Shown here piece by piece: positions 224 through 32,710 of a DNA stretch of 50,911 nt; position 1 is the stretch's first letter, and each line of letters starts with the position of its first letter. The notes below the pieces were generated by a model, which was given only the letters and a program-made list of their open reading frames with translations, searched no databases and was not told the DNA's origin. This DNA comes from Candidatus Methanoperedens sp. Its GTDB lineage: Archaea > Halobacteriota > Methanosarcinia > Methanosarcinales > Methanoperedenaceae. The stretch is taken from positions 1-50,911 of the forward strand of contig VEPM01000030.1 in the NCBI GenBank assembly GCA_012026795.1. The letters run 5' to 3'. A program made the position numbers and the translations under genes.

Positions 224-1249
224 TTACCTCTTTGATATATCTTTCAATGCTGCTTCGAGATAGGTTCTATTTACCCTGGATGCTACATCGAAATCACCTG
301 TTGTGTGTATTCCAATTTTTATCAGGTTTGCTTTTTGCCTGTTTAATTTATCAATTTCTTTCTGAGTCAAAGAGAAACTTTGAATGAACTCACTGCCAGG
401 AAACTGCCTCTTGAGAGCATTAACAGATATTTTGGAAGTATTCGCCTGGAATTCCAGGTATTCATCGGGGTGATCCTTTATCCATTCTTGCGCTCTTATC
501 TGAGCTTTTAAGAACGCTGTCACTACTCCGGGATTCTTAATTCCATACTCCCGTCGTACGACATGTATATCCTGACCCGGCCATTCCGGATCTTCGCTCA
601 CTTCAAATAATATTTCCACCGATCCTTCTTTTTCATATTTTGCTATAGTTGTTGTGCCAATTACTGCAGCATCAACTTGTTTACTGAGCAGGGCAGCCAC
701 CGCATCCGCACTCTCCAGATTCACCCAGGTTACGTCATTTTTTGGTGACAGACCATATTTTTCCACAATATACCAGGAAAACAGATGAGCGTTCCCACCT
801 CCGGACCCTCCGGCTACTTTTTTACCCTTCAGGTCCTTGACAGATTTGATTCCTGATCCGTTTAATACCACAATTGAATTTCTTGACCCACCCCATGGTT
901 TTATTGCAATTATTTCAACATCTATTCCTGCGCCAATAGTATGCAAGATCGGTACATCACCGGAGTCGCTTATGTCAATACTTTTAGACCCGAGAAACTC
1001 TGCAATCGGATTACCAGCCCCTGTAGAAGTAATTATTTCGTATCTGGCATTAACTTTTGCAAGTTCGTCGTCAAGATAACCTTCCTTTATGGATACTCCC
1101 AATTCTTTGCCCGGGAGAGCGCCCACAAGTCCTATTTTGAGTAATACTGTTTCCGCACTCTCCGGTGCACTGCTGTCATTGTATAAAGAGAATACTGTTA
1201 TTGAACCCAGTATCAGTAATCCTATGATTCCGTATGTTTTAGTATTCAT
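224..1249 (-). CDS. ABC transporter substrate-binding protein, SsuA/NMT1-like (SBP 1)
   Basis: Periplasmic-type binding protein of the aliphatic sulfonate/nitrate/thiamine-pyrimidine group, 341 residues. The N-terminus has one hydrophobic signal or anchor segment (YGIIGLLILGSITVFSL) without a lipobox Cys. The body shows the family pattern: GxxxA/SDISDSGDVPIL, SVKDLKGKKVA, and SKQVDAAVIG. The start at 1249 is chosen because GGAGGT (1254-1259) lies directly upstream; the longer frame from 1261 would contain this site. It is the last gene of the operon headed at 4729, 20 bp after the permease. It lacks the YTNEFNPYYKK tail shared by the other three binding proteins, so it is the most divergent. 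The ligand is unknown. Confidence 0.85.
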   Translation of the reverse strand: MNTKTYGIIGLLILGSITVFSLYNDSSAPESAETVLLKIGLVGALPGKELGVSIKEGYLDDELAKVNARYEIITSTGAGNPIAEFLGSKSIDISDSGDVPILHTIGAGIDVEIIAIKPWGGSRNSIVVLNGSGIKSVKDLKGKKVAGGSGGGNAHLFSWYIVEKYGLSPKNDVTWVNLESADAVAALLSKQVDAAVIGTTTIAKYEKEGSVEILFEVSEDPEWPGQDIHVVRREYGIKNPGVVTAFLKAQIRAQEWIKDHPDEYLEFQANTSKISVNALKRQFPGSEFIQSFSLTQKEIDKLNRQKANLIKIGIHTTGDFDVASRVNRTYLEAALKDISKR

Positions 1250-1269
1250 TTTTACCTCCAATTATTTTC

Positions 1270-2130
1270 TTATAAAATCGCATTATCGATGTCCCCTTTC
1301 CAGTAGGTTGCTTTCTTTTCGATCCAGACCATAAAATAATTAGCTGCAAGACCTAAAACTGTCATAACCAGAACGCCGGCATAAACCTGATCTGTCTGGA
1401 TGACGGTCCGGGCATATTGGATAAAATATCCCATTCCTGAATTGGCGGCAATCATTTCGGCTGCGATCACTACCATTATCGCTATTTTAACTCCCAGTCT
1501 GACACCGGCAATTATTGATGGCACACTTGCAGGAAGTATTACTTTCCTGAATAATTCGCGATCATTTACTCCCATCGACCTGGCTGCCTTTATGAAAAGG
1601 GGATCAACGTTTTTGACCCCACTTATAGTGTTTATCAGGATAGGCCATACAGCGCCGAAAAATATTATGGCTATTTTTGATAGCTCACCGATCCCAAGAA
1701 GTAATATAAATATCGGCATAAGGGCAAATGTTGAGGTATTCCTCAGGCTTTGCACTAACAGGTCGGAATACATCTCAATACGGTTATACCATCCGATCAC
1801 AAGTCCCAGTGATATACCTGCCACTAAGGCCAATCCGAATCCCAGAAGCGACCTTTTTAAACTTGCTGACAGATGAACCAGCAATTCACCCGATAAGAAG
1901 AGATTCTTTATTGTTATTATTGTTAATGAGAACGTGGGCAAAAGGATGGGATTAATGATCCCTGACCTTGGCAGGATTTCCCAGAGAAAAATAACAATAA
2001 ATACCAGTAAATATTTTGTTATTAATCTGTGCGCCCATCCTTTAATGTGCATTATTTTTCTTACGGTGGCATCCAATCTCACAGATCCCGTTTTTAATCC
2101 GTCCCCAAAATTAAATATTTCTTCTGACAT
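1270..2130 (-). CDS. ABC transporter permease, SsuC/TauC-like (permease 1)
   Basis: Inner-membrane permease of the binding-protein-dependent family, 286 residues, with about six hydrophobic segments. The cytoplasmic coupling (EAA) loop is visible as AARSMGVNDRELFRKVILPASVPSIIAGVRLG near residues 180-210. The C-terminal KKATYWKGDID is shared with the two other permeases in the window. It lies between the dehydratase-like gene ending at 2154 and SBP 1. No ATPase is encoded in this operon, so it probably shares one of the two ATPases at 8628 or 19088; that sharing is inference. Confidence 0.88.
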   Translation of the reverse strand: MSEEIFNFGDGLKTGSVRLDATVRKIMHIKGWAHRLITKYLLVFIVIFLWEILPRSGIINPILLPTFSLTIITIKNLFLSGELLVHLSASLKRSLLGFGLALVAGISLGLVIGWYNRIEMYSDLLVQSLRNTSTFALMPIFILLLGIGELSKIAIIFFGAVWPILINTISGVKNVDPLFIKAARSMGVNDRELFRKVILPASVPSIIAGVRLGVKIAIMVVIAAEMIAANSGMGYFIQYARTVIQTDQVYAGVLVMTVLGLAANYFMVWIEKKATYWKGDIDNAIL

Positions 2131-2153
2131 AATATACCTCTCACTACATAATG

Positions 2154-3545
2154 TTAATTCAACATCTCTATAAATGCATTAACACGGTTCTGAAGCTGTT
2201 CTGTCTGTTCTCCTCTCATCTCATGTTCTATTATCAAAGTCGGGATACCCGTTTCTTCATGTATTATATCGCACAGCATTCTCGCTATTGCCGATTGGGT
2301 ATTGCAGCCCCAGTTGTACAGGAACAGGAATCCATCCGACCTTGATTTTTTTAACTGGTCAATTGTCCACTCCGCGCGTCCTTCTATCGGTTGCTCGTAA
2401 GGGTATGAAAGGATCGCCCTGGCCAATTTTTCATACGGATCCCCGGTCTCTTCGACAATAGTGCTTATATCGCTCCAGTGGTTATCATTCCCGACTATTA
2501 TTCCCCCGGCTTCTTCTGTCCTGAAGTCATTTGGGAATACGCATGAACCACCCACAAACAATCTTCTGGCATTATCAGTGACACCTTCGCCTTTTGTCGA
2601 ATGCTTCACCCTTTCCTTAATATCTTTATTGGCTTCCTTCAAAACAGTCAGGCTTGCATTCGGGTCTCCATGAAGTTCCATTCCCCCCATCTGGAATATA
2701 GCCCTCCGGTCTGCACCATTTGTTGGTGGCGCGCTGGCTGACCACCAGACATCAGCAGTGTCAAGAGCAAGTTTCCTCCCCTTATTGTGAAGTTTGATCT
2801 CTTCCTTCAGGTCATTTTCCGTAACTTCTTTCCCCGACATTTTCCCGATTTCGCGGGTCAACCTGTGGAGATTCCTGGCCAGATAACCCGCTGCCCACTC
2901 TTTTTCTTTCTGGTGGTCCAGCGGAAAGTCAACAAGGAACAGGCCGATCTTTCTTTTGCCATGACGGTGGGCTTCTACACCATAACCCACATCAGAGCAT
3001 CTCAGGCACAGGTACGGAGCAACCATATCAACAGGAAGATTTCCTTCCTGTATATGCTCATAGCCGGCGGTCTGGCATATTTCAAAGCTAATGGCCTTCC
3101 TGGCCTTCTCACGCACATCCAGGCTCCTCATTTCTTCCTCCCTGAGGTTCAATCCTTCTTCCTTTCCCCGGGCCCATGCGCCTGTGCTTGCAGGCCGGAG
3201 AGCTATTCCGCCGGCAGCATAGTATGGATCAACGCTCTGGCCTCCCTGGACAAAAATAATAGGGGAGCCGTTCTCCCGCGCCCTGGATGTACGGTCATTC
3301 ATGGTAAGCATCAAATAGTTATGCTTTATGCTGCTCGGAAGACGCACATCGCCGGATAGCCGCCTGCCATAGTAGCGGTTGTTAGTATATGCGTATGGAT
3401 ATCTGACGGGTGCTTCTTCTGTCATGAAGTGCCATATATCAGCAGCCGAGATACGGGAACCATCCCGGAATACAATGTCTTCGGTTTCAATGAATTCAGG
3501 TTTTATTTCTTCAGGATACTTGAAAAAATTTTCATTCAGGCTCAT
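2154..3545 (-). CDS. 2-hydroxyacyl-CoA dehydratase/BcrB-like Fe-S subunit (type B, copy 1)
   Basis: 463-residue member of the HgdA/BcrB side of the 2-hydroxyacyl-CoA dehydratase D-component family. Family proteins bind [4Fe-4S] or double-cubane clusters and carry out difficult low-potential reductions or radical dehydrations. Visible features are the substrate-domain stretch PIIFVQGGQSVDPYYAAGG, EICQTAGY (Cys157), PYLCLRCSD (Cys180, Cys183), GGSCVFPND (Cys335) and NWGCNTQS (Cys414). All five Cys recur in copy 2 at 5287-6675. The start follows GGAAGTGGA and overlaps the stop of the type A gene by 4 bp, as expected for subunits of one complex. The substrate is unknown; benzoyl-CoA reduction itself is not supported. 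Confidence 0.82.
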   Translation of the reverse strand: MSLNENFFKYPEEIKPEFIETEDIVFRDGSRISAADIWHFMTEEAPVRYPYAYTNNRYYGRRLSGDVRLPSSIKHNYLMLTMNDRTSRARENGSPIIFVQGGQSVDPYYAAGGIALRPASTGAWARGKEEGLNLREEEMRSLDVREKARKAISFEICQTAGYEHIQEGNLPVDMVAPYLCLRCSDVGYGVEAHRHGKRKIGLFLVDFPLDHQKEKEWAAGYLARNLHRLTREIGKMSGKEVTENDLKEEIKLHNKGRKLALDTADVWWSASAPPTNGADRRAIFQMGGMELHGDPNASLTVLKEANKDIKERVKHSTKGEGVTDNARRLFVGGSCVFPNDFRTEEAGGIIVGNDNHWSDISTIVEETGDPYEKLARAILSYPYEQPIEGRAEWTIDQLKKSRSDGFLFLYNWGCNTQSAIARMLCDIIHEETGIPTLIIEHEMRGEQTEQLQNRVNAFIEMLN

Positions 3546-4729
3546 TGTTCCACTTCCTGGATTTCTTTATTTTTGATCATTTCCACAAAGGCCTCAGCCC
3601 TGGTTCTTATCGCCTCGAGATCGGATCCTGCATACTCGGTATGGATCTCAAGAAGCGGTATCCCTTCTTTTTTTAGCACATCTTTTGTCTCACTTGCCTT
3701 GAATGTAAATGGATCGCAAAAACGCAATGTGTGAAATATTACTCCCTGTGCTTTGTGATCATTGATGATCCGCTTAAGGTTCTTTAGCCGCCCGTCGGTT
3801 TCAAGGTCCAGGTAAGGCAGCGCAGCATGAGGAACACGGTTTATATAGCCATCTGCTATGCCTTTTATAGACGCTTCCCTTATCTCAATATTCATTGAAG
3901 GATTCAGGCCGGACCAGAGTTCATCACTCACTATCCTGCCGCCAACTTGCTCGATAATGTTTATCAGCTTTGTATCCCCCGGAGGAATTATGCTGCCTGA
4001 AACCAGGATACGCGCATCACCGTTCAAATTCCCGATTACAGGTTCGCCGTGCTGTTCCCTAAGCTCGCCAAGCAGTTCATGCAGCAATGAAAGATACTTT
4101 TCCCTATCGAGATAAAATCCGGCATGTACCACATCAAAAACTTCACGCCATTTAATAGTGGATTTGCTTATTGCCTGATACTTATAGAGTTCTTTTATGG
4201 ATTTTCTTATGTCGTTGTAAAGTTTAATGGAACCAGCAAGCTTATTCGTATCAAGCTTTTTTCCTGCAACAGCTTCCAATTTCTTCGTAAAGAATTCAAG
4301 CTCTTTCTCGAAATATTCCTGTCCTTCTGGTAAGGAGAAATTTCGGGGTACGCCAAGAATAACAATATTTATTTTAAAATAATGCTTTATAACCTCTGCT
4401 GCACGGTATGTTTGCAGGCATGTGGCATCTGCAGCCACTATATCTGAATTTTTGATATAAGGATCCTGATTTTCCGCAAATAGCCCTACGAGTTCTCTTG
4501 TAAAAACACAATTCTTTGTTGAAATATATCTTGCCCCGATTTCAACCAGCCTGTCGTTTCCTCCGGTTCCCAGCCTTACAGGGATTAATCCCAGGGCATG
4601 GATTATCTCTTCAGGGATATTATAATTAAACCATCCCACAACTTTTCTTCCTTTTCTTCTTGCGTCAGCAAGTTCTTGGGGTCTTTCCTTTACAGCATTA
4701 TTTATTTTCTCTAATGTTTCCAGGGTCAT
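3542..4729 (-). CDS. 2-hydroxyacyl-CoA dehydratase/BcrC-HgdB-like Fe-S subunit (type A, copy 1)
   Basis: 395-residue HgdB/BcrC-like protein. Recognisable blocks are VVGWFNYNIPEEIIHALGLIPVR, STKNCVFTRELVG (Cys74), ADATCLQTYR (Cys104), ILVSGSIIPPGD and HTLRFCDPFTFK (Cys338). The three Cys match the usual number of cluster ligands per subunit. The start at 4729 is preferred over 4738: GGAG (4740-4743) is 10 bp from it, and it gives the same length as the paralogue at 9522-10709. It is the first gene of operon A, behind the conserved 35-bp box. Its partner is the type B subunit that overlaps its end. Members normally need an ATP-dependent activator; the only candidate here is the truncated gene at 10712-11068. 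Confidence 0.83.
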   Translation of the reverse strand: MTLETLEKINNAVKERPQELADARRKGRKVVGWFNYNIPEEIIHALGLIPVRLGTGGNDRLVEIGARYISTKNCVFTRELVGLFAENQDPYIKNSDIVAADATCLQTYRAAEVIKHYFKINIVILGVPRNFSLPEGQEYFEKELEFFTKKLEAVAGKKLDTNKLAGSIKLYNDIRKSIKELYKYQAISKSTIKWREVFDVVHAGFYLDREKYLSLLHELLGELREQHGEPVIGNLNGDARILVSGSIIPPGDTKLINIIEQVGGRIVSDELWSGLNPSMNIEIREASIKGIADGYINRVPHAALPYLDLETDGRLKNLKRIINDHKAQGVIFHTLRFCDPFTFKASETKDVLKKEGIPLLEIHTEYAGSDLEAIRTRAEAFVEMIKNKEIQEVEQ

Positions 4730-4775
4730 ATTTTTCATGCTCCATTTTCATGAGAATAATCCCAATTGGACACCG

Positions 4776-4822
4776 AATTATATCACCCTATAGAAATCAG
4801 CAATAATCGCCATGATCATTCC
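4776..4822 (-). promoter_or_regulatory. promoter A: conserved 35-bp box plus TATA-like element
   Basis: The 35-bp box (4788-4822, read on minus) contains ATGGCGATTATTGCTGATT and is followed by a TATA-like GATATAATT (4776-4784), about 50 bp before the start at 4729. The same box occurs without gaps at 11123-11157, 15791-15825 and 19978-20012, always just ahead of a minus-strand unit. An ATTGCC (4840-4845) upstream can pair with the GGCGAT of the box. Confidence 0.72.
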
Positions 4823-5021: not shown

Positions 5022-5255
5022 TCATCCCTTCTTTACAAAGATATGATATGCCCCTTCTTTACTCTCTACATCAAGGAATTCATCCCCGGATTTGGTCAGC
5101 CATACATCTATGTTCTGCCAGGCTTCAGGATCGCTGGCTATGATCTCAAGTACCTCGCCTTTTTTTAAAGTTTTTATCTGCTGGAGTGTTCTTATGCGCG
5201 GATAAGGGCATTTTTCGCCCCTCACATCTAACTTAACGTCTGGAATTATTGTCAT
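5022..5255 (-). CDS. TusA/SirA-like sulfur carrier protein
   Basis: Small protein of 77 residues with the TusA-family core: LDVRGEKCPYPRI near the N-terminus (the CPxP motif with its persulfide-carrying Cys), then KKGEVLEIIASDPEAWQNID. Family members hand sulfur to tRNA, molybdenum cofactor or other sulfur pathways. The start at 5255 is chosen because AAGGTG (5262-5267) lies 6 bp upstream; a GTG nine bases earlier falls inside that site. It is the last gene of the operon headed at 11068, 31 bp after the type B subunit. Its presence suggests sulfur chemistry in the island, but this is inference. Confidence 0.82.
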   Translation of the reverse strand: MTIIPDVKLDVRGEKCPYPRIRTLQQIKTLKKGEVLEIIASDPEAWQNIDVWLTKSGDEFLDVESKEGAYHIFVKKG

Positions 5256-5286: not shown

Positions 5287-6675
5287 TTATTTTAGCATCT
5301 CAATGAATATCTCAACCCGGCTATGCATTTGTTCATGTCCTTCCCGGCTTTCTGCCATGGCGCGCTCGATTGTTATGGTTGGAATTCCGGTCTCTTCCCT
5401 GACAACATCAGCAACCATTCTTGCTACCCCGGACTGGTAATTGCAGCCCCACTGGTGCATAAAGATCAGACCATCTGCATTTGATCTTATCACCTGTTCT
5501 GCGGTCCACAGGCCCCTCTCCTGTGTAGGAAGTTCGTATGGGAAAGAAACAATTGCTTTTGCCAGGTTCTCGTATGGATCTCCTGTTTCCTTAACATCAT
5601 TTGAGACTTCGCTCCAGCCGTCATCCTTTCCTACTACTATGCCCCCTAAACTGTCCACATGTTTCGTACTCGGATTTACACAGGAACCGCATATGAACAA
5701 TCTTACTGGATCATCTTCTATTCCTTCTCCTTTGACAGAATTCTTAACTCTTTCTTTCACTTCACTGTATGATTCTTCAAGAATCTGTTTTGCAGCCACC
5801 GGATCGCTGTTACTTTCGTTGCCAAGCTGCAATATACCTGTATGGTCAGTACTGTTCGTGGGTGGAGTTGAGGCAGACCACCACAGTTTAGCATAGTCTC
5901 TGGCAAGCCTGCGTTTCTGGTTGTGCAGCTTTATCTCATCTCTGACATCATCATCAGTAACTTCCCGGTTACCTAATTCACCGATTTTTTTCGTAAGCCT
6001 TCGAAGATTATCTGCCACATATTCTGCCGCCCATTCTTTATCTTTCTGGTGGTTAACCGGGGAATCGACTAAAAGCAGTGGAATTTTTATTTTTCCATGC
6101 CTGTGAGCTTCTACGCCATATGCAATATCAGAACATCTCAGGCAAAGGTATGGAGCTATTAATGCTATGGGTACCATACCTTCCTGGATTATCTCGTATT
6201 TAGCTGTCTGGCATGCCTCCACGGTCAATTCCTGCCTTCCGATTTCTCTGATCTGGAGCCTTCGGAAATCAGCTTCCTGGTAATCCTGGTTTTCCTTGAG
6301 ATTTGTAGCCCATTCGTTCACCATGCCAGGTCTTGTGGGTATTCCTCCTGCGGCATAGTAAGGCTCATGTGTCTGCCCGCCCTGTATGAACACTACGGGT
6401 ACGCCCCTTTGGGCTGCTTCAGTCAGGCGGTCATGGACAGTAATGCTGAAATAATTCCGTTTTATGCCGCTGATCAAATCGGTATCTTTTGACAGGCCAT
6501 GATAGCGGCTGTCGCTGAATAAATGGGGATGTCTCCGCGGACCTTCTTCTGCCATAAAATTCCAGATATCACCGGGTGTTAATCGCTTACCATCTCTAAA
6601 TACCAGATCCTCAGTTTCGAAAAACCTGGATTTTACTTCTTCCGGATAATGAAATAGTTGTTTATTTGTTGTCAA
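5287..6675 (-). CDS. 2-hydroxyacyl-CoA dehydratase/BcrB-like Fe-S subunit (type B, copy 2)
   Basis: 462-residue paralogue of 2154-3545 with the same five Cys: VEACQTAKY (155), PYLCLRCSD (178, 181), CGSCVNP (332; Cys329 is extra) and QWGCNYQS (411). The start is a TTG at 6675, fixed by AAGGAG 8 bp upstream. In this operon the type B gene is separated from its type A partner (9522-10709) by a whole ABC transporter, unlike copy 1 where they overlap. This suggests that the module was rearranged after duplication. A double-cubane or extra [4Fe-4S] cluster is possible given the extra Cys, but cannot be shown from sequence. Confidence 0.82.
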   Translation of the reverse strand: MTTNKQLFHYPEEVKSRFFETEDLVFRDGKRLTPGDIWNFMAEEGPRRHPHLFSDSRYHGLSKDTDLISGIKRNYFSITVHDRLTEAAQRGVPVVFIQGGQTHEPYYAAGGIPTRPGMVNEWATNLKENQDYQEADFRRLQIREIGRQELTVEACQTAKYEIIQEGMVPIALIAPYLCLRCSDIAYGVEAHRHGKIKIPLLLVDSPVNHQKDKEWAAEYVADNLRRLTKKIGELGNREVTDDDVRDEIKLHNQKRRLARDYAKLWWSASTPPTNSTDHTGILQLGNESNSDPVAAKQILEESYSEVKERVKNSVKGEGIEDDPVRLFICGSCVNPSTKHVDSLGGIVVGKDDGWSEVSNDVKETGDPYENLAKAIVSFPYELPTQERGLWTAEQVIRSNADGLIFMHQWGCNYQSGVARMVADVVREETGIPTITIERAMAESREGHEQMHSRVEIFIEMLK

Positions 6676-6687: not shown

Positions 6688-7731
6688 TTATTTTTTATAA
6701 TATGGGTTAAATTCATTCGTATATACATCCGATGGCTTGATATCTCCCGGTTTTATCAGGCCGCTCTCAACAAAATTGTCGATCCAGAACTGGATATCAT
6801 CGTCAGTTATGAATTGATTTTCCGGCGACCACCTGGGTCCCCTGTAATATCTGGCTAATTTGGGATTCCCGCCCTTTTCTTCCAGAACTTCACCGTATGC
6901 TTTTCTGACACGTTCCGGGTCTTTTTCATACTCTTCCCATACAATACGCCTCGCGCTATCATAGGCTTTTAAGTATTTCCTGACAGTGTCCGGATACTTT
7001 TTTATGAAGTCTTCCCTGAATCCCTGACTCGTGGTGAACAGGCTCTTTTTCCCTCTTGCCTCGTAGCTGCTGGTACCGGGTATTCTTCTCACGCCTCCAT
7101 TTTCAACTGCCCTGTCAAACCACGTTCCACCGGATGTCGTCCCGGCCACTGCGTCCACCTGTTTGCTCCTCAATGATTGCTCCTGGTTGTTGGCAGGTAT
7201 TACAACCAGTTCCACCTGGTTTATAGAAAGGCCATTTTGCTTCAGGAAGGTCTTTATTATGAATTCAGCCTCTGCGCCCAGCACATTGACTGCAATCTTT
7301 TTACCAGCCAGATCCTTGATAGAATTAATACTGCTATTCTCAAGGACAAGCAGACCGGAATGTTCAGGCTTTTCTGTTATACTTCCGGGGAGAAGAAGTT
7401 TTACCTTCGAACCTTTACTGATAACATTTACCCATATCGAAATTGACCCGCCTGCTGTATCAAGATTATCGGCTAAAAGAGCCTGCATTGTCACAGTTCC
7501 GCCTTCACCGCCCTGTACTGTTATGGGTTCAATCCGTACCCCTTCTTCTCCGGGAATATCCCTTCCTGTTAATTTTTTTACAATTTCAAAATTATTAGGG
7601 GTTGTGGAAACGCTTTCCCTGATCGGGACAATTTCTTCATTTGTCTTCTCCCCATCAGTGAAAAACACTCCTGTCCCAATAATTGCAACAACAATAACTG
7701 CAACTGATAGATATTTTGTGTTATTATTCAT
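6688..7731 (-). CDS. ABC transporter substrate-binding protein, NMT1/SsuA-like (SBP 2)
   Basis: About 347 residues with an N-terminal hydrophobic anchor (YLSVAVIVVAIIGTGVFF). The body shows SIKDLAGKKIAVNVLGAE, FLKQNGLSINQVELVVIP, and RSKQVDAVAGTT, typical of this binding-protein family. The start at 7731 is preferred because GAGGT lies 7 bp upstream; an ATG at 7752 overlapping the permease stop (ATGA) is the alternative. It ends YTNEFNPYYKK, a tail shared with SBP 3 and SBP 4, which may contact the common permease type. The gene sits between permease 2 and the type B subunit. Confidence 0.86.
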   Translation of the reverse strand: MNNNTKYLSVAVIVVAIIGTGVFFTDGEKTNEEIVPIRESVSTTPNNFEIVKKLTGRDIPGEEGVRIEPITVQGGEGGTVTMQALLADNLDTAGGSISIWVNVISKGSKVKLLLPGSITEKPEHSGLLVLENSSINSIKDLAGKKIAVNVLGAEAEFIIKTFLKQNGLSINQVELVVIPANNQEQSLRSKQVDAVAGTTSGGTWFDRAVENGGVRRIPGTSSYEARGKKSLFTTSQGFREDFIKKYPDTVRKYLKAYDSARRIVWEEYEKDPERVRKAYGEVLEEKGGNPKLARYYRGPRWSPENQFITDDDIQFWIDNFVESGLIKPGDIKPSDVYTNEFNPYYKK

Positions 7732-7748
7732 TAGATTTACCTCTTTTT

Positions 7749-10709: not shown

Positions 10710-10711
10710 CG

Positions 10712-11068: not shown

Positions 11069-11110
11069 ATTATAACTCCTTTCAATCGAGTAAACCACTC
11101 TATACTTTAT

Positions 11111-11157
11111 TCTTATAATACTCTTTAGAAAGCAGCAACTATCGCCATGTTTATTCC
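11111..11157 (-). promoter_or_regulatory. promoter B: conserved 35-bp box plus TATA-like element
   Basis: The box (11123-11157) reads ATGGCGATAGTTGCTGCTT on the minus strand and is followed by TATTATAAG (11112-11120), about 50 bp before the start at 11068. It is one of four copies in the window. An upstream ATTGCC (11175-11180) could pair with GGCGAT. Confidence 0.7.
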
Positions 11158-12019: not shown

Positions 12020-12493
12020 TCAGTTCTTATCGTCTAATATCCTATCTAGATGCTGGAAATGCGGATGCTTTTTTATTTCCTCCTCTCTTTTAACAGAATA
12101 CGTCTCATTTTGTATCTCTTTGGGAGTAATAAGCCATACTCCTGCAAGATCGGCATATGAATTCTGGGTTTCAATCTCATTTAGATAGAATTGTTCATAC
12201 AGGGGGCCGTTAATCACATATCTTGCAGGTCTTCCTTTTATCTGATAACTGACTCCATTTTTACCATGAACGAGTACTGACACATCTTTATTGAACCATA
12301 AACTCTCGAGAATGTTGCTGTTGGCATGCGATGACTCAAAAGGCTCCCCGTATGCCAGTGTTCCATCATCAAGTATGGTTAAACTCTCCCTCAAAACTGC
12401 ATGAGGATTGCCATTTTCATCTGTTGTTGCTATAATTTTTACTGTTTCTGAATCTTTTATTAAATCTATCACTTCTTTTGAAGGTATTGTCAT
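12020..12493 (-). CDS. PNPOx-like split-barrel flavoprotein (copy 1)
   Basis: 157-residue protein of the pyridoxamine 5'-phosphate oxidase-like split-barrel fold, which commonly binds FMN or F420. The visible pattern is VKIIATTDENGNPHAVLRESLTIL, then LWFNKDVSVLVHGKNGVSYQIKGRPARY, and an acidic/basic C-terminus (REEEIKKHPHFQHLD). The start at 12493 is set by AAAGGTG about 6 bp upstream. It follows the radical SAM gene by 11 bp, and the same gene pair recurs at 16223-17938. The substrate is unknown; it could be a redox partner of the radical SAM protein. Confidence 0.78.
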   Translation of the reverse strand: MTIPSKEVIDLIKDSETVKIIATTDENGNPHAVLRESLTILDDGTLAYGEPFESSHANSNILESLWFNKDVSVLVHGKNGVSYQIKGRPARYVINGPLYEQFYLNEIETQNSYADLAGVWLITPKEIQNETYSVKREEEIKKHPHFQHLDRILDDKN

Positions 12494-12504
12494 TTTTATC
12501 ACCT

Positions 12505-13788
12505 TTAATTATTTTTATAGTCAAGTCTGCTTAAATCCAGGTCCGGATGAAGTGAGCATCTCCTGTAATCATTAAAATCCGCACCTATTTTGTATCTTCT
12601 TCTGATATCACGAATGCCTTGAGCCATTCGTACATAATATTCAAGAGGTGGAGCCTGGTGTTTTATCTTGCTAAAGTACGATGTCTGCCCGATCCTCAAT
12701 ATATGCAGGGAAAGCGATACCCCGTGTTGAGCGTAGAACTCCGCGCCTTCAAGGCTTGAGTTCACAGCATCATCTATTGTCTTAAAACCATAGGGTTGAG
12801 CCATCTCAGCACCACCTACAATTTGTGTGCAAACATTTCCTTTGCCAAATATATCCACCGCAGCTATTGCACTGTTGATCCAGTACTGCCTGCCATAATA
12901 TTTTGACTTCCCCGGGCATATCCACTCGAACAATTTTTCATCCCATACCTCAATATGTGGTTCATAGGCCGTGGCGCCGGCTTCTTTCAACCTGATCAAT
13001 TGATCCTCTGGGAAAGCACTGGCTATTAACCGGATGGGAATATACTTAGACCCAAAAATCCGTTTTAAGGTATTCAGGACTTTAACATATTCATCTACCT
13101 CTTTTTCATAGGGAGAATTATCTGAATGAGGTTGTGAGCCGCCCCCTGCAGAAAAACCGGTCCATCTTCCTTTTTCTTTTAAAGCTTCATTTACTGTTTC
13201 ATATATATCTTCCAGGAATTCAGGTGTATTTCCATTTATGCGGTTTTCCCTGGGTAATCCGCTGCCAACCCCGTTGCAGTATTTACAGGGCAATTTTTCT
13301 TTCCAGAACTGGCAAACACCGAAACTGCCCCCAACACCCAGCGTGTCTGTCCTCCCGGCGCTTACAACGTCCTCCATCGGCGTTCCGCGACTGGTCTTTT
13401 TTCCATAGTATCCGGGTCTGGACTTGAAGAAGCATTCTTCGACAGGCTCATCGCCGTCTAAAAGCGTTAACTTGTCATCGACAACATCAAGGGTATAAGG
13501 CGCACCTTCATGTCCCCTGACTATTTTTGGGAAACGTCCCTGTACTTCTTCCAGGCCGCGGGCTGCGGTGCCATCTCTGAATACTATACCTCCTATTGTG
13601 AATTTAGCGTTTTTAGTTCCTGTATTTGATATTTCTAATATGGCATCTGTTTCACGTGCCCTTTCAAATGCCTTATCAGTAAAATTTATCCCCCGCAATG
13701 CCGTATCAATTTTCAATATCACGAACCTGGATACATCAGGGTATTTCTCAACATATTCTTCTAAGGTGGGTTTTGCATTGTTTGTCAT
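12505..13788 (-). CDS. radical SAM-like protein with C-X8-C-X2-C motif (copy 1)
   Basis: 427 residues. An N-terminal region (about 1-150) carries a conserved YYGKKTSRGTPM block. It is followed by CQFWKEKLPCKYC at 159-171, in which the Cys spacing is C-X8-C-X2-C instead of the usual C-X3-C-X2-C. Downstream, FSAGGGSQPH (GGE-like), IRLIASAFPEDQLIRLKEAGA, EPHIEVWDEKLF and VCTQIVGGAEMAQPYGFKT look like a radical SAM TIM barrel. The paralogue at 16703-17938 has the same spacing. It lies between SBP 3 and a PNPOx-like gene. No known product can be named; I infer SAM-dependent radical chemistry on the imported compound or on a cofactor. Confidence 0.72.
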   Translation of the reverse strand: MTNNAKPTLEEYVEKYPDVSRFVILKIDTALRGINFTDKAFERARETDAILEISNTGTKNAKFTIGGIVFRDGTAARGLEEVQGRFPKIVRGHEGAPYTLDVVDDKLTLLDGDEPVEECFFKSRPGYYGKKTSRGTPMEDVVSAGRTDTLGVGGSFGVCQFWKEKLPCKYCNGVGSGLPRENRINGNTPEFLEDIYETVNEALKEKGRWTGFSAGGGSQPHSDNSPYEKEVDEYVKVLNTLKRIFGSKYIPIRLIASAFPEDQLIRLKEAGATAYEPHIEVWDEKLFEWICPGKSKYYGRQYWINSAIAAVDIFGKGNVCTQIVGGAEMAQPYGFKTIDDAVNSSLEGAEFYAQHGVSLSLHILRIGQTSYFSKIKHQAPPLEYYVRMAQGIRDIRRRYKIGADFNDYRRCSLHPDLDLSRLDYKNN

Positions 13789-13803: not shown

Positions 13804-14850
13804 TTATTTTTTATAATATGGGTTAAATTCATTTGTATAGATATCAGACGGATTAATTTGTCCATCTTTGAGTATGCTATCACTTACCATCCAGTCTATC
13901 CATATCTGGACATCACTATCCTGTAATAGCGCATGTTCCCTGACACCAAAGCCAGTCCAGTATTTCGCCAGGCCGGGATCCCCGCCTTTGTCCTTGAGTA
14001 ATTTGGCATATAATCTATTGGCTTCTTCAGGATTTTCTTTGGCCCAGTCAACTGCTTTTACATAACCTTCTACAAACCGCTTAACAGCGTCAGGATTTTC
14101 TGCGATGAATTTCTCAGATACGGGATACGTCGTTGCCATATAATCTCCAACAATTTCGGTTTCATTGAACAATATCCGGGCTTCTCCTCCAGCCAATGTT
14201 TTTAAAATCGGGGTGCCTGACCCTATTATTACATCCACCTGTTTCTCTCTCAGAGCTTGCTCAAAGGATGTTGTAGGCAATGCAATGAATTCTACCTGTT
14301 CTCTGGATATGCCATTACGTTTCAGGTATTCTCTTGTAACATAATCCCCGGTACCTCCAAGAGTATTGGTTGCCAGTTTTTTTCCCACAAGGTCTTTTGC
14401 GGTTTTTATACTGCTGTTCTGCAGTACGACCCATTTATAAGGATTATCTGCGGATCCCCTGCCCGGTACGACGCCTTTAATCTTTGTCCCGCGTGCCTTG
14501 GCGTTTATTATAGCAGACCATGCAGTACCACTACCGATATCTGTGCTTCCTGATCCCAGCGCAAGGATGCCTTCAGGTCCACCCTGGACTGAACCCGTGT
14601 CGATGAGATTTAAGTTCAACTCCTTATAGAACCCAAGTTCTTTGGCGAATTCATGCGGACTTGCGCCCGAAAGACTGGAAACATAACGTACATTAACCGT
14701 AGCTTGTGACTTTTTTGCATTATTTTCTGGGGATAGAGTAATATTGTTGATTTCGTTTGTTTGCGTTTTAGTTTCTTTAAAAATCATACCTGCAATTATT
14801 AGTATTATTGCAGCAGCAGCAACTACTAAAATTTTTGTTGTATTATTCAT
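13804..14850 (-). CDS. ABC transporter substrate-binding protein, NMT1/SsuA-like (SBP 3)
   Basis: 348 residues with an N-terminal hydrophobic anchor (ILVVAAAAIILIIAGMIF). The family signature is clear: VRYVSSLSGASPHEFAKELGFY, EGILALGSGSTDIGSG, TAKDLVGKKLATNTLGGTG and REKQVDVIIGSGTP. AAGGAG precedes the start. It ends YTNEFNPYYKK like SBP 2 and SBP 4. It follows permease 3 by 14 bp and precedes the radical SAM gene by 15 bp; no ATPase is in this operon. Confidence 0.88.
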   Translation of the reverse strand: MNNTTKILVVAAAAIILIIAGMIFKETKTQTNEINNITLSPENNAKKSQATVNVRYVSSLSGASPHEFAKELGFYKELNLNLIDTGSVQGGPEGILALGSGSTDIGSGTAWSAIINAKARGTKIKGVVPGRGSADNPYKWVVLQNSSIKTAKDLVGKKLATNTLGGTGDYVTREYLKRNGISREQVEFIALPTTSFEQALREKQVDVIIGSGTPILKTLAGGEARILFNETEIVGDYMATTYPVSEKFIAENPDAVKRFVEGYVKAVDWAKENPEEANRLYAKLLKDKGGDPGLAKYWTGFGVREHALLQDSDVQIWIDWMVSDSILKDGQINPSDIYTNEFNPYYKK

Positions 14851-14864: not shown

Positions 14865-15716
14865 TTATCCGATAATCGCACTATCGATATCCCCTTTCCA
14901 GTAGGTTGCTTTCTTTTCGAACCAGACTAATAGATAATTGACTATAAGACCCAGTATAACCAGGGTCAATATTGCCGCATACATCTCAGGTATCATAAAA
15001 TTGTACTGGGCGTTCTGGATATAGAAACCAAGTCCGGATTTGGCCCCGATCATCTCGGCTGCTATCACCACCAGTATAGCCGTTTTTGCCCCCAGCCTTG
15101 CACCTGAAACTATGGATGGAACGCTTGCAGGAAGAATGATTTTTCTGAAAAGTTCCATATCCGAAATTCCCATTGATTTAGCGGCCTTTATATAAATTGG
15201 ATCAACATTCTTGACCCCACTAATGGTATTTATCAGGATATGCCATACGGCGCCAAAGAATATTATGGCTATCTTTGATGTTTCTCCTATTCCTAAAAAT
15301 AATATGAATACCGGAAGCAGCGCCAGGGTGGAAGTATTTCTCAGTCCCTGTACAAATACATCAGTATATCTTTCAAATTTGTTATACCAGCCCATGAGCA
15401 CCCCAAGGGGTATCCCTACCAGCAGGGCAAGTCCGAATCCTGTAATGGATCTTTGAAGACTTACTCCAATGTGTACAAATAGCTTACCTGATAGAGTAAG
15501 ATTAATTAGAGTTAGAATAACCTCTGAAAAAGCCGGAAGAAAGGCTTGATCGATAATTCCAATTCTGGGTAATGCCTCCCATAATGCAAAAAATGCAAAC
15601 ACCAGCAAGAATCTATCCGACCATACATAAAATTTTTTCAAATTTTTTATCAGGCCGCTGGTTTCGATTACCAGTGATTTGGATTTGTTTTCAGTATTGA
15701 ATATTTCTCCTGACAT
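14865..15716 (-). CDS. ABC transporter permease, SsuC-like (permease 3)
   Basis: 283-residue membrane protein, close paralogue of permease 2, with AAKSMGISDMELFRKIILPASVPSIVSGARLG and C-terminal KKATYWKGDIDSAIIG. AAGGAG precedes the start. It is the first gene of operon C, behind a copy of the conserved 35-bp box, and is followed by SBP 3. It must borrow an ATPase, most plausibly ATPase 1 or 2, since the coupling loop is nearly unchanged among the paralogues. Confidence 0.9.
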   Translation of the reverse strand: MSGEIFNTENKSKSLVIETSGLIKNLKKFYVWSDRFLLVFAFFALWEALPRIGIIDQAFLPAFSEVILTLINLTLSGKLFVHIGVSLQRSITGFGLALLVGIPLGVLMGWYNKFERYTDVFVQGLRNTSTLALLPVFILFLGIGETSKIAIIFFGAVWHILINTISGVKNVDPIYIKAAKSMGISDMELFRKIILPASVPSIVSGARLGAKTAILVVIAAEMIGAKSGLGFYIQNAQYNFMIPEMYAAILTLVILGLIVNYLLVWFEKKATYWKGDIDSAIIG

Positions 15717-15776: not shown

Positions 15777-15825
15777 CTATATATATCATAATTTAGAAAT
15801 CGACAACTATCGCCTTATTCACTCC
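15777..15825 (-). promoter_or_regulatory. promoter C: conserved 35-bp box plus TATA box
   Basis: The box (15791-15825) reads AAGGCGATAGTTGTCGATT on minus and is followed by ATGATATATATAG (15777-15789), the best TATA sequence of the four copies. The start at 15716 is about 65 bp downstream. Unlike the others, this copy lacks an upstream ATTGCC, so a conserved RNA hairpin is less likely than a DNA-binding site. Confidence 0.72.
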
Positions 15826-15885: not shown

Positions 15886-16181
15886 CTATGAATCTTTACT
15901 GAAAGGCTTAGCGATTATCTCCAGTATCCTGAAGTCAAAAAAATTATTGGCATGGGAAGGCAAGACCACAATAGCTGTGTCAGCGCCCCTGCCTTTTGCT
16001 CCTGTGCCGCCCACAGCAATGGTCTTATCAAGAGGTATGGCACCCCCATCTAGAGCCATGATCGCGCACTCCACAGCTACTTTCGTGCCTATGCTAAAAA
16101 GTGATCTTAAGGATTCTGCCACAATTTCACTGTATTCTTTGCCCCACTATGTTCAAAATAGGTGATTGGTTTTTTCGTCAT
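15886..16181 (-). pseudogene. remnant of a PK_C-like (pyruvate kinase alpha/beta-domain) protein
   Basis: From ATG at 16181 the frame reads MTKKPITYFEHSG, the typical start of archaeal proteins that contain only a pyruvate-kinase C-terminal-like domain (about 190 residues). Almost at once the frame must shift to continue as WGKEYSEIVAESLRSLF, then VKVAVECAIMALDGG-like and AVGGTGAKGRGADTAIVV and FFDFRILEIIAKPF, the end of the same family. The middle of the protein is missing, so this is an internal deletion plus frameshift. A frame from GTG 16122 is open but would make only a 78-residue C-terminal piece. It follows PNPOx copy 2. The family's function is unclear. Confidence 0.65.
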
Positions 16182-16222: not shown

Positions 16223-16693
16223 TTATTTAATAAACGATTCCCTGTCCAGGTGCCTGAAGATGGGGTGCTTTTTTTCTTCCTCTGCCTTCCTTACTGAAGG
16301 CGTTTCATTCCTGATTTCCTTTGGATCAATGATCCATACTGCCGCAATATCGGATTCAGGACCGCTTTTTTGCCTTTTTGCAGTATAAAATTGTTTAAAT
16401 ATAGGTCCGTTCGTTATGCATTTGGCTGCCTCTCCTTTGATCTGATAGCTCAAGCCGTTTTTACCGCGAAGGGTTACTGATATTCCTTTATTGAACCAGA
16501 TGCTTCTGACCATATTCTTGTTGCTTTGCGATGATTCCAATGCTTCAGCATACGCAATGGAACCATTATCCAATACCGTAAGGCTTCCTTTGAAAACTGC
16601 ATGTGGTGCGCCATTCTCGTCTACCGTGGCTACTACTTTTACAGTTTCAGGGTCCCTGATCAATCCAATTACATCTTCTGGTAAGTTTACCAT
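16223..16693 (-). CDS. PNPOx-like split-barrel flavoprotein (copy 2)
   Basis: 156-residue paralogue of 12020-12493, with VKVVATVDENGAPHAVFKGSLTVL and IWFNKGISVTLRGKNGLSYQIKGEA. GAGGTG sits 5 bp before the start. It follows radical SAM copy 2 by 9 bp, repeating the radical SAM-PNPOx gene order. The C-terminus is highly charged (RKAEEEKKHPIFRHLD), as in copy 1. The substrate and the cofactor (FMN or F420) are not determined. Confidence 0.78.
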   Translation of the reverse strand: MVNLPEDVIGLIRDPETVKVVATVDENGAPHAVFKGSLTVLDNGSIAYAEALESSQSNKNMVRSIWFNKGISVTLRGKNGLSYQIKGEAAKCITNGPIFKQFYTAKRQKSGPESDIAAVWIIDPKEIRNETPSVRKAEEEKKHPIFRHLDRESFIK

Positions 16694-16702: not shown

Positions 16703-17938
16703 TCAATAATCAAGCCTGTCAAGTCTTGTGTCTGCATGATGCTCATTCCAGTCTAATCTTATTCCATAGTTTTTCCTGATGTCATGCAAACCCTGTGTTA
16801 ATCTCACATAGTACTCAAGATTAGGACGTTTTTGTTGTTCTCTGAAAAATTCCGAACCTTTTCTGACGCCCCATATCGTGGATGAGATCGTCACTCCATG
16901 CCTTGCGAAATACTCAGCACCCTCAAAAGTGGATTTCAATGCGTCATCATTTGTTTTAAATCCGTACGGCTGTGCGGTCTCTACTCCACCTACTACCTGT
17001 GTGCAAACATGATTCTCGCCAAAAACATCCACTGCTTTGATCGCGCTGTTTATCCAGTAATCCCTTCCAAACCACTTTGATTTTCCAGGGCATATCCATT
17101 TGAAAAGTTTCTCATCCCATACCTCGATGTGGGGTTCATAATGTATATCAGCACCGGTTTCAGCCAGCCTGTTCAGTTGGTCCTCTGAAAAAGCACTTGA
17201 AACCAGCCTGACCGGAAAAGTTGATTTGAAATTTTTTCCTATTGCAGTTATTATTTCAATATATCTATTTACCTCATTATCGTATGGCGTCTCTCCTCCG
17301 AAATCAGACCCGCTGCTTAAATGTATCAATTGCCATCTTCCCTGCTCCTTCAAAGCTTCTTTAACGGTTTCATAACAATCCTGAGGATTCAACTGGTTTA
17401 AGCCGCCATGTATCTTCCTATAATCTTTTGGAAGACTGCAATATTTACAGTGATTTCCATTTTCCCAGAAATGGCAATATGCATAAGGCTGGAAACTCAG
17501 GGCATCTTCCGTAGATTCCGAAACTTTTTCCATTGGTGTTCCATTGCTTGTCTTCTTGCCATAATATTCTGGAGTGGATACGAAATCGCCTTGTGCCAGT
17601 GGTTCATTTCCATCCAGGATGGTTATTTTGTCATCAACAATGTCAACAGTATAATTATTTCCATCATTCAAAGATGCACTTCTCTGTCCTCCTGCTATTG
17701 GGGTGCCATCTTTAAGCAAAATAGTCGGGCAGGTTTCTTCAACGGCTCCAAAGCATGCGTTTAATTCTTTTGCCCTTTCAAGCACATTCTCTGTAAATTT
17801 CACTCCGCGTAATGTGGTATCTATATGCAGAATAATAGGTTCCGGTACTTCCGGATATTTTTCCACACATTCTTTAAATCCAAGTTTCTGATTCCTATCT
17901 TTTATACATACTTTTTGTTTTGTTTCCGATTTGCCCAT
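16703..17938 (-). CDS. radical SAM-like protein with C-X8-C-X2-C motif (copy 2)
   Basis: 411-residue paralogue of 12505-13788. It keeps the YYGKKTSNGTPM block, CHFWENGNHCKYC at 155-167 (again C-X8-C-X2-C), HLSSGSDFGGETPYDNE, LVSSAFSEDQLNRLAETGA, HYEPHIEVWDEKLFKW and VCTQVVGGVETAQPYGFKT. The glycine-rich GGGS of copy 1 is replaced by SSGSDFGG, so the SAM-binding stretch varies. GGAG lies upstream of the start. It lies between SBP 4 and PNPOx copy 2. That two diverged copies keep the same odd Cys spacing argues that it is functional. Confidence 0.72.
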   Translation of the reverse strand: MGKSETKQKVCIKDRNQKLGFKECVEKYPEVPEPIILHIDTTLRGVKFTENVLERAKELNACFGAVEETCPTILLKDGTPIAGGQRSASLNDGNNYTVDIVDDKITILDGNEPLAQGDFVSTPEYYGKKTSNGTPMEKVSESTEDALSFQPYAYCHFWENGNHCKYCSLPKDYRKIHGGLNQLNPQDCYETVKEALKEQGRWQLIHLSSGSDFGGETPYDNEVNRYIEIITAIGKNFKSTFPVRLVSSAFSEDQLNRLAETGADIHYEPHIEVWDEKLFKWICPGKSKWFGRDYWINSAIKAVDVFGENHVCTQVVGGVETAQPYGFKTNDDALKSTFEGAEYFARHGVTISSTIWGVRKGSEFFREQQKRPNLEYYVRLTQGLHDIRKNYGIRLDWNEHHADTRLDRLDY

Positions 17939-17953
17939 ATTTCAATATCTCCA

Positions 17954-19048
17954 TTATTTTTTATAATACGGATTAAATTCATTTGTATAGATATCAGAAG
18001 GCTTAATTTGACCTGGATTTAATTTGCCATCCTCTATAAAGCGATCAATCCACCACTGTACATCATCGTCTGTCATAAATGGATGATCAGGCACAAATGT
18101 AGGTAGATAATAATTCCCTAGCTCCGGATTTCCACCTTTTTCCTTTAGAATCTCCGACACAGCTTTCTTGACAGACTCCGGATTCTTTTGGAATTCGTCA
18201 TATATCAAACGCTGGGATTTTTCATATACCCGCACAAATCCTTTCACTGCGCCTGGATGCTCTTTTATGAAATCTTCCCTGAATCCTGCTCCCGATGCCA
18301 TCGTTGCTTTTCCCTTAATTTGATAAGAGTCGGTCACTGTTCTGATCCCTCCTCTTTTCTTTGCAATCTGATACTGTTGTTCGCCTATCACTGCGATATC
18401 AACTTGTTTTGTCCTTAAAACCTGTTCATGCTGTGCACTGGGTACAACAATCAGTTGAACCTGATCGATAGAAATTCCGTTATTTTTCAAATAAAACCTG
18501 GTTGCATAATCAGACTCAGCTCCCAGCGTATTCACTGCAATTTTTTTGTCCACAAAGTCTTTTACCGTAGATATGCTGCTGTTCTCCAGCACTACCCAGT
18601 AACTATCTGGTTTTTCTAATGTCCTGACACGTGTTCCATGGACAACTTTTATCTTTCCTCCTGAGCCAATTGCGTTTATCCATACCGGCAGAGCCGGACC
18701 TGATGAACCGGCAGCAGGATAATCAACATTATTGGCCAGTAGTGACTGTACGCCAGTAGTACCGCTTCCAGTAGGTAAGGAAGTTATGTATTCTAACTTT
18801 ACCCCCTCTTCTTCCAAAATATCTCTTCCTGTCAATTTTTTCATTATGTCCCAATTACTGGCTGTATCAGGGCTGTCAAGAATACGAATAACAACAGTAT
18901 CTTGTTTTGCAATTGTAGCTGGCTCTTTCTGTGTGTTTTCCGTTGTAAGACAACCACTACCGACAAGCAAGATAGCAACGACTGTAATAATAGATAACAA
19001 TTTAATAGTATTATTATTGTTCATATTTATTTTAATATTATTATTCAT
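17954..19048 (-). CDS. ABC transporter substrate-binding lipoprotein, NMT1/SsuA-like (SBP 4)
   Basis: 364 residues. The N-terminus has a hydrophobic stretch ending LLVGSGCLTTEN, which resembles a lipobox, so this copy may be lipid-anchored. The body has VLENSSISTVKDFVDKKIA, NTLGAESDYATRFYLKNNG and RTKQVDIAVIGEQQY, and it ends YTNEFNPYYKK. A second in-frame ATG at 19024 is an alternative start. It lies between ATPase 2 and radical SAM copy 2. No permease is encoded in this operon, so it depends on one of the others. Confidence 0.86.
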   Translation of the reverse strand: MNNNIKINMNNNNTIKLLSIITVVAILLVGSGCLTTENTQKEPATIAKQDTVVIRILDSPDTASNWDIMKKLTGRDILEEEGVKLEYITSLPTGSGTTGVQSLLANNVDYPAAGSSGPALPVWINAIGSGGKIKVVHGTRVRTLEKPDSYWVVLENSSISTVKDFVDKKIAVNTLGAESDYATRFYLKNNGISIDQVQLIVVPSAQHEQVLRTKQVDIAVIGEQQYQIAKKRGGIRTVTDSYQIKGKATMASGAGFREDFIKEHPGAVKGFVRVYEKSQRLIYDEFQKNPESVKKAVSEILKEKGGNPELGNYYLPTFVPDHPFMTDDDVQWWIDRFIEDGKLNPGQIKPSDIYTNEFNPYYKK

Positions 19049-19087
19049 ATTTTTTGCCCTATTTTTATTATATTTATTTTATTATTA

Positions 19088-19924
19088 CTACTTCGAATAT
19101 ACCGATGCAAGCTCCCAATCCTTCTGCGCTTTGATCACTTCTCCTTTGAGCAAATCCCAGACTTTATGACGGTTGTTTGCAAATTCAGGGCTTGATCTGA
19201 TATTCACATCTCTCGGTCTTGGAAGATCGATATCTATCACGTGTTTTACGGCTCCTGGTCTTGCAGTAAATACAGCGACCCTGTCTGCAAGGAAAATTGC
19301 CTCATCAATGCTGTGAGTTACAAATATAACGGTTGTACAAGTTCCTTCCCAGATTTTTAGGAGCTCATTCTGGAGAATCTCACGGGTCTGGGCATCCAGT
19401 GCTGCAAAAGGTTCATCCATCAATAATACCTCCGGATTAGTCGCAAGCGCCCTTGCTATTGCTACTCTTTGCTGCATGCCGCCGGAGAGCTGGTAGGGAA
19501 ACCTGTCCCAGAAGTCAGATAGCCCGAATACGGAGAGCAGTTTTTTAGCGATCTTTGTCCTTTCTTCTTTAGGTACATTTTGTGCTTCAAGTCCGAATTC
19601 TATGTTAGAAAGAGCGTTTCTCCAGGGAAAAAGCGCATATTGCTGGAATACATATCCGGTCTTGATATTGGTTCCTTCGACCTTTTTATCGTCCAGATAG
19701 ACACTTCCGCTGGTGGAACCTGTCAATCCGGCTATAATATCAAGCAAAACGGACTTCCCACACCCGCTGGGCCCAACAACAACGAGAAATTCCCCATTCC
19801 TGATACACAGGTCAACACCGTTTAACACCTCTATTTCATTGGATACTATGCCGTTGGAATTCACCTTCTGCCCTTCTTTGAGCTTGAATTTTTTCTTTAC
19901 GCCTTCAGATCTAATTTTGTCCAT
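19088..19924 (-). CDS. ABC transporter ATPase, SsuB/TauB-like (ATPase 2)
   Basis: About 278 residues, very close to ATPase 1 throughout: GPSGCGKSVLLDIIAGL, VFQQYALFPWRNALSN, LSGGMQQRVAIARAL, EVLLMDEPFAALDAQTR and VTHSIDEA. The start at 19924 is inferred from alignment with ATPase 1 (MDKIRSEG versus MEKVKAQG); an ATG at 19936 is also in frame. No clear ribosome binding site precedes either, so the transcript may have a very short leader. It is the first gene of operon D, behind the fourth 35-bp box. Confidence 0.91.
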   Translation of the reverse strand: MDKIRSEGVKKKFKLKEGQKVNSNGIVSNEIEVLNGVDLCIRNGEFLVVVGPSGCGKSVLLDIIAGLTGSTSGSVYLDDKKVEGTNIKTGYVFQQYALFPWRNALSNIEFGLEAQNVPKEERTKIAKKLLSVFGLSDFWDRFPYQLSGGMQQRVAIARALATNPEVLLMDEPFAALDAQTREILQNELLKIWEGTCTTVIFVTHSIDEAIFLADRVAVFTARPGAVKHVIDIDLPRPRDVNIRSSPEFANNRHKVWDLLKGEVIKAQKDWELASVYSK

Positions 19925-19965
19925 TATCATCAACATTTATTAATAATGCACCAACTATTCCATCT

Positions 19966-32708: not shown

Positions 32709-32710
32709 TC

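Follow-up and report, generated by a model that had tools for sequence, protein, structure and literature searches.

A candidate importer and reductase island of Methanoperedens-group archaea with a possible role in anaerobic sulfur scavenging

An island of genes for ATP-binding cassette (ABC) importers, reductase-like subunits of the HGD-D family, radical S-adenosylmethionine (SAM) proteins and small flavoproteins lies at positions 224-19936, minus strand, of contig VEPM01000030.1 (contig C30) of Candidatus Methanoperedens sp. This Methanoperedens-group archaeon has a genome of 3.59 Mb and shares its genus with Methanoperedens BLZ2 and METP1. The window, that is, the whole stretch of DNA that was analysed, comprises 50,911 nucleotides. 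As the initial annotation had counted, the island holds 19 intact open reading frames (ORFs) and two remnants on one strand, and its module counts agree with the ORF inventory as well: four binding proteins, three permeases, two ATPases, two type A and two type B HGD-D subunits, two radical SAM proteins, two PNPOx-like flavoproteins, one LUD-domain protein and one TusA-like protein. The coding density on this single strand is 94%, and GC content is no marker of the island (0.423 versus 0.413). Scans of the window gave no Rfam match at the gathering score and no tRNA.

Read along the minus strand, the genes form four units. Unit 1 begins with ABC ATPase 2 of Tau/Ssu/Sao-like type (19088..19936), which is 91% identical to the ATPase of the island in the related genome G049, and continues with substrate-binding protein (SBP) 4 (17954..19048), radical SAM protein 2 (16703..17938) and PNPOx-like small flavoprotein 2 (16223..16693), which is 54% identical to PNPOx1 and belongs to a family that is the radical SAM partner in green sulfur bacteria. 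Unit 2, which follows a gene remnant at ~15890..16180, consists of permease 3 (14865..15716), SBP3 (13804..14850), whose nearest solved structures are THI5/SsuA-type proteins, radical SAM protein 1 (12505..13788), PNPOx-like small flavoprotein 1 (12020..12502; a weak PF01243 match of 25 bits, below the cut-off of 28.1) and possibly the LUD-domain protein (11245..11967; PF02589, 137 bits), for which no counterpart was seen in other islands. Unit 3 comprises an activase remnant of HgdC/BcrAD type (10712..11098 as an ORF), type A subunit 2 (9522..10715), ABC ATPase 1 (8628..9464), permease 2 (7749..8600), SBP2 (6688..7752), type B subunit 2 (5287..6675) and a TusA/YedF-like sulfur-carrier protein (5022..5255). 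The TusA-like gene adjoins B2 both here and in METP1 (91% identity), where B2 itself is also 91% identical. Unit 4 carries type A subunit 1 (3542..4738), type B subunit 1 (2154..3545; 79% identical to a Bathyarchaeota copy), permease 1 (1270..2130) and SBP1 (224..1261).

Each unit is headed by a copy of a 44-bp element, in which the core GGCGATAGTTGCTGATTTCTAA is followed by an A/T-rich TATA-like stretch and, in many copies, preceded by TTGCCGCAA. The element sits in intergenic DNA, 13-63 bp ahead of the first gene. Its window copies, all on the minus strand, occupy 19966..20009 (unit 1; GGCGATTGTTGCTGATTTCTAA, one mismatch to the core, 30 bp before the gene), 15779..15822 (unit 2), 11111..11154 (unit 3) and 4776..4819 (unit 4; three mismatches). 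A near-core pattern of 23 bases, allowed up to three mismatches, has three matches in the window and none in 100 shuffles; the core at up to four mismatches matches four times in the 20.6 kb of the island, with no match in the remaining 30.3 kb of the window or in 77 kb from elsewhere in the genome. Further copies stand on a second island of this genome, on contig C36, before a type B gene and before an intact activase gene. Four other Methanoperedens-group genomes (METP1, BLZ2, G049 and G051) have element-bearing sister islands. In METP1, BLZ2 and G049 the element lies ahead of the activase gene; G049 has a further copy before a methyltransferase gene, and the copy of G051 stands at the start of a methyltransferase/importer/activase cluster. 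None was found in viral contigs. The element is common to A/B and radical SAM-PNPOx units, and by this shared sequence the four window units and the C36 units appear to be one regulon. Neither the element nor the second island formed part of the initial annotation. Because a weaker form (TTGCTGATTTCTATAG..ATATA without GGCGATA) precedes other genes, part of the element may be an ordinary or genus-wide promoter; the weaker form was seen before LeuC-like, activase and NifH-like genes (L075:8957, minus; L076:7646, plus; L110:10959, minus; L112:12289, minus).

All four window A/B genes match PF06050 (HGD-D) with 151-275 bits in a search of the whole genome, the cut-off being 28.4; a separate scan of B1, A1 and B2 gave 150-275 bits. 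Invariant cysteines number exactly three in type A (C77, C107 and C341), and they align with the three cluster positions of the HGD-D family. In type B, C157, C180, C183 and C414 are invariant and C335 is nearly so. The two types align with an hhalign probability of 99, with C157, C180 and C414 paired to C77, C107 and C341, and the extras of type B are the invariant C183 and an N-terminal extension. A model of B1 (predicted local distance difference test, pLDDT, 86; predicted template-modelling score, pTM, 0.88) matches HadB, DCCP, MbdN and BzdN with query TM scores of 0.63-0.69. By sequence, type A is nearest to the structures 7yyl/6eno of DCCP, the double-cubane protein (133 bits), and an alignment with 7yyl shows no counterpart in type A of the extra cysteines of the second cubane. 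Both types remain far below the cut-offs of all the equivalog models for 2-hydroxyacyl-CoA dehydratases and benzoyl-CoA reductases (type A reaches 122 of 700 bits for HadC and 108 of 421 for BcrC), and the double-cubane model NF040772, which needs 350 bits, gives 219 for type A and 78 and 77 for type B. Copies within this genome are 79-81% identical for type A versus 49-53% for type B. Conserved A copies and divergent B copies fit, without proving, a shared electron-delivering A that serves substrate-specific B subunits.

The activase is of BzdQ/HgdC type. On contig C36 it is intact (C36:25083-25889; TIGR00241, 291 bits against a cut-off of 125) and lies in a second island at ~12-32 kb with two type B genes, one type A gene, two MFS proteins, a permease, three binding proteins, another complete importer with a radical SAM protein, and MetY/MetX. 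Compared with this copy, the window remnant, whose homology starts near 11065, has four clean deletions of 117, 69, 171 and 90 nt and is without the region of the second cluster cysteine. All four deletions are multiples of three and the kept parts are nearly identical to the C36 copy, a pattern that is odd for ordinary decay and is possibly an assembly artefact. The remnant at ~15890-16180 keeps the N-terminal 17 residues and, at 79% identity, the C-terminal 84 residues of a 196-aa protein, of which an intact homologue is encoded in the G049 island. In G051 (L119:9197-11200), a 667-aa protein with an activase-like part is preceded by ATPase, permease and binding protein genes and followed by an HGD-D-like ORF.

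A core module of activase, HgdB/BcrC-like subunits A and B and importer was found in 23 genomes of four lineages. The genome searches covered portions of large phyla, and a good many of the bearers are metagenome assemblies. Full-length type B is carried by 5 of 186 genomes of the order, 4 of 74 Margulisbacteria (Termititenax included), 1 of 398 genomes of the phylum of the Bathyarchaeota bearer and 13 of 394 genomes sampled from that of the Chlorobiaceae bearer; because all 13 carry the FMO protein (PF02327), they are green sulfur bacteria. Of the 46 type B genes, 38 are within 5 kb of a type A gene and 38 within that distance of an activase gene; several exceptions sit at contig ends. Genes for SsuA/TauA/SaoX-like binding proteins, permeases and ATPases adjoin those of the enzymes, and Gram-negative bearers add a porin (PF07396). 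In the type B tree, archaea and bacteria are interleaved on well-supported branches: B1 of the window clusters first with Bathyarchaeota, then with 22 green sulfur sequences, apart from B2 of its own genome. Importer proteins of the window archaeon and green sulfur bacteria are 69-76% identical (SBP2 69%, permease 2 71%, and ATPase 1 76% with the ATPase of the G560 island). Interdomain transfer would be the simplest reading of this tree together with the importer identity. Near the Methanoperedens-group islands, a methanogenesis-marker-8-like protein (identified by eye) recurs in several genomes, and a small NifX-like protein is its direct or close neighbour (L031:7036-8268, L074:6078-7359, L110:268-1056, L111:14018-14401).

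Both window radical SAM proteins, which share the motif C-X8-C-X2-C with invariant cysteines, belong to the variant family NF045502 (172 bits for protein 1 and 181 for protein 2; cut-off 125). Other genomes of the order yielded no close relatives. Six green sulfur genomes have window-like copies (166-210 bits), where a PNPOx gene adjoins in ten of ten cases, often with importers and MarHDK-like operons nearby. G458, G398 and G418 have operons that combine a related form with genes for type B, permease, SBP and ATPase; in G285 the related form is joined by type B, permease and SBP. The co-occurrence of A/B with this radical SAM protein, for which the initial annotation had proposed to search archaeal genomes, is thus strong in green sulfur bacteria and weak in archaea alone, where 2 genomes are shared of the 5 and 6 bearers among 186 (p ~0.008; p ~0.09 within the family). 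Its interpretation stands in part: radical SAM-PNPOx is a second module, separable from A/B, and the two do not make up one obligatory pathway; what they have in common is the importer class and, in this genome, the upstream element. A functional assignment from a radical SAM model compared with the PDB was dropped, the matches being generic (lipoyl synthase, HydE and biotin synthase; query TM ~0.4). The green sulfur contig G398:C26 (L207, L208) has a tandem run of five NF045502 genes plus a sixth, all of the C36 type; a MarHDK-like operon lies nearby, as does an ORF of 677 aa that matches the activase best. In another unit (G458:C59, L206), radical SAM, PNPOx and importer genes lie beside a corrinoid protein, an MtaA-like methyltransferase and an AcsV-like activase.

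Several neighbours point to sulfur metabolism. Nitrogenase-like operons lie within the same islands in G560, G328, G486, G418, G398 and G576, and beside importers in G045 and G046; those of green sulfur bacteria are of the HDK type and stand in islands that carry radical SAM-PNPOx, next to the importer proteins with 69-76% identity to those of the window. The nearest solved structure of their proteins is methylthio-alkane reductase MarDK of R. rubrum (9FMG), which the K-like proteins match with 260 and 252 bits (next structure 96 and 102) and the D-like proteins with 172 (next structure 97) and 206 bits. On C36, MetY and MetX pass their cut-offs and have counterparts, 78 and 67% identical, near A/B in Bathyarchaeota; AHCY and SAM synthetase exceed theirs in the G049 island; and two green sulfur genomes have MetY ahead of their radical SAM array. 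Genes for a class III aminotransferase, an AhpD-like protein (identified by eye) and an amino-acid permease stand upstream of MetY and the array in two such genomes (L212:4290-5678, L222:5032-6435) and hint at an amino-compound substrate such as taurine. Methanoperedens-group genomes without type A/B, namely G045 (contig C57; L110, L111) and G046 (contig C1; L112), hold several nitrogenase-like D/K pairs, and among these lie importers of the same class, an NF045502 radical SAM protein and a QueG-like protein. Outside the island, the window encodes a methionine gamma-lyase-like enzyme at 46087-47262 (476 bits; cut-off 550) and, as read from the sequence, ThiC-like, MetF-like, MetV-like and dihydropteroate-synthase-like genes in a row at 29885-33931; the host group uses methanopterin.

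The observations from which we argue are gene content, synteny, the shared upstream element, the cysteine pattern and the fold. With high confidence we regard the importer and the ATP-driven reductase as one coherent system. That the island is a co-regulated and horizontally mobile system for the uptake of small organic compounds and for their low-potential reductive processing by ATP-driven Fe-S enzymes, with sulfur being scavenged, is a reading on which we are evenly divided. From the observations we infer the electron flow, the substrate, the reaction with the bond broken, and the fate of the sulfur as follows. The activase would spend ATP to drive electrons of very low potential into A, which would hand them to B. 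The B subunit, which diverges faster and is usually coded beside a binding protein, would hold the substrate at an open iron site and cut its carbon-sulfur bond. The thiol, sulfide or sulfite so released could then pass by way of TusA and MetX/MetY into homocysteine and methionine. The radical SAM-PNPOx pair would be a further enzymatic module within the regulon and would act on other imported compounds. Such a route would parallel the sulfur supply by methylthio-alkane reductase, through an ATP-driven reductase of HGD-D type. The initial annotation had suggested an imported organosulfur compound or cofactor precursor; the MarHDK-like operons, MetY/MetX, AHCY/SAM synthetase and TusA favour the former, on which opinion tips slightly, and the cofactor precursor gained no such context. 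Direct cleavage of a C-S bond by B, as opposed to another reductive step, is a more doubtful assignment, which we would sooner question than assert.

A number of results weigh against this sulfur reading. In the MarD-like island proteins Cys270 is aligned and no histidine aligns with the MarD ligand His429, the loop alignment being weak; His429 was itself overlooked by an earlier sequence analysis. The idea that the nitrogenase-like proteins of the sister islands are true methylthio-alkane reductases was dropped, and they are taken as relatives without proof of that identity. No MarHDK-like gene was seen among the window ORFs, and the rest of this genome was not searched for one. The best model for the TusA-like protein is the selenium protein YedF (61 bits, cut-off 79; TusA 40, cut-off 78). 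No SBP reaches the SsuA family model TIGR01728 (163.5 bits), SBP1-4 scoring 151, 84, 122 and 74; permeases 1 and 2 score 171 and 166 of 295 bits for SaoP (permease 1 also 146 of 347 for SsuC), and ATPase 1 scores 254 of 360 for SaoA. As the importers stay below all curated cut-offs, a sulfonate ligand should not be deduced from their names. Sulfide is often present where green sulfur bacteria live, and scavenging of sulfur should then be needless unless the bearers are low-sulfide strains. To our knowledge, the characterised HGD-D enzymes that act on organic acids all use CoA thioesters.

The main rival is a substrate that contains selenium or a metalloid, in which case methylated selenium, arsenic or similar compounds would be imported and then detoxified or put to use by A/B and the methyltransferases of the sister islands. 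The permease and ATPase score best with SaoP and SaoA, the TusA-like protein with YedF and type A with the double-cubane reductase model, arsenite methyltransferase models are among the best weak matches of one G049 methyltransferase, and selenium-type Mlp clusters contain DCCP and Sao genes (PMC10418091). However, these four scores all lie far below their cut-offs, type A is without the extra double-cubane cysteines, and the neighbours that do exceed cut-offs (MetY, MetX, AHCY and SAM synthetase) are enzymes of sulfur and methionine metabolism, so we consider selenium or metalloid handling unlikely.

Chemistry on CoA thioesters, either 2-hydroxyacyl-CoA dehydration or aryl-CoA reduction starting from an imported acid, would suit the HGD-D fold family, the nearest folds (HadB/HadC, DCCP, BzdNO and MbdON) and the BzdQ/HgdC type of the activase. 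It is improbable given the equivalog scores, well below every cut-off for A and B, and the neighbourhoods: no degradation operon and no CoA ligase or CoA transferase was seen either in the island of the window or around A/B genes of other phyla, where ORFs were read without dedicated models. That the island salvages or modifies the precursor of a cofactor or tetrapyrrole (thiamine pyrimidine, corrinoid, F430 or bacteriochlorophyll) is suggested by the resemblance of the binding proteins to THI5/NMT1 proteins, by the tetrapyrrole reductases among the nitrogenase-like relatives and by cobalt-transport-like and ThiC-like genes further along the window. As MarDK is a far nearer match to the nitrogenase-like partners than tetrapyrrole reductases are and the islands are without cofactor synthesis genes, this was dropped as the leading explanation; the system also occurs in few members per lineage, unlike a core cofactor function, and we give the proposal little weight. 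The initial annotation had allowed for a chance cluster of unrelated transporters and reductases should the genes fail to recur together in other genomes, and both families are indeed large and common. This was set aside as highly improbable, being contradicted by the element shared between the window units and by the recurrent synteny of importer, A/B and activase in 23 genomes of four lineages, as well as by the ten of ten radical SAM-PNPOx pairs in green sulfur genes.

How strict anaerobes acquire sulfur from sulfonates and other organosulfur compounds is, as far as we know, largely unsolved, and aerobic monooxygenases cannot work in their setting. A co-regulated set of importer, ATP-driven reductase and link to homocysteine makes this question directly testable. 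If the sulfur reading is right, it would extend the HGD-D/activase family past CoA thioesters and describe a mobile metabolic island of two domains of life. In its fullest form, A/B and the activase would be a new, non-nitrogenase, ATP-driven C-S (or sulfonate) reductase that acts on free rather than CoA-bound imports and that, together with radical SAM-PNPOx and MarHDK-like enzymes, belongs to a mobile sulfur-acquisition toolkit of methane-oxidising archaea, Bathyarchaeota, termite-gut Margulisbacteria and green sulfur bacteria; jointly, these propositions are tentative and rather unlikely to hold in every part. No description of the island gene cluster was found in the literature, where open-licence papers only were covered and an earlier account elsewhere is possible.

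Among known systems, methylthio-alkane reductase MarBHDK is a nitrogenase-like, ATP-driven anaerobic metalloenzyme of very low potential that supplies sulfur to methionine (PMC12552129). MarHDK-like operons occur in the same green sulfur islands and beside similar importers in Methanoperedens-group genomes; however, A, B and the activase are of HGD-D and not nitrogenase type, and the window ORFs include no nitrogenase-like gene. With HadBC-I, BzdNOPQ and MbdONPQ the island system shares the fold, three cluster cysteines per subunit, a heterodimer-like pair and an ATP-dependent activase of HgdC/BcrAD type, but its type B has the N-terminal extension and an extra invariant cysteine, and it is coupled to ABC importers with no CoA-thioester genes seen. 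DCCP, the closest to type A by sequence, likewise belongs to an ATP-dependent reductase system for small molecules; it is a homodimer, whereas the island encodes a heteromeric A/B pair. SsuABC/TauABC and SaoXPA combine a binding protein, a permease and an ATPase of the same transporter class, although every tested island component falls under their curated cut-offs. PMC10418091 describes type I Mlp gene clusters in which MetY and sulfur or selenium genes accompany MarHDK-like or DCCP genes, and the radical SAM-PNPOx-importer unit of G458:C59 resembles them. The window island genes differ in that they include no Mlp, corrinoid protein or corrinoid activase, and neither the A/B pair nor the radical SAM-PNPOx pair was encountered in the sections of that study that were consulted.

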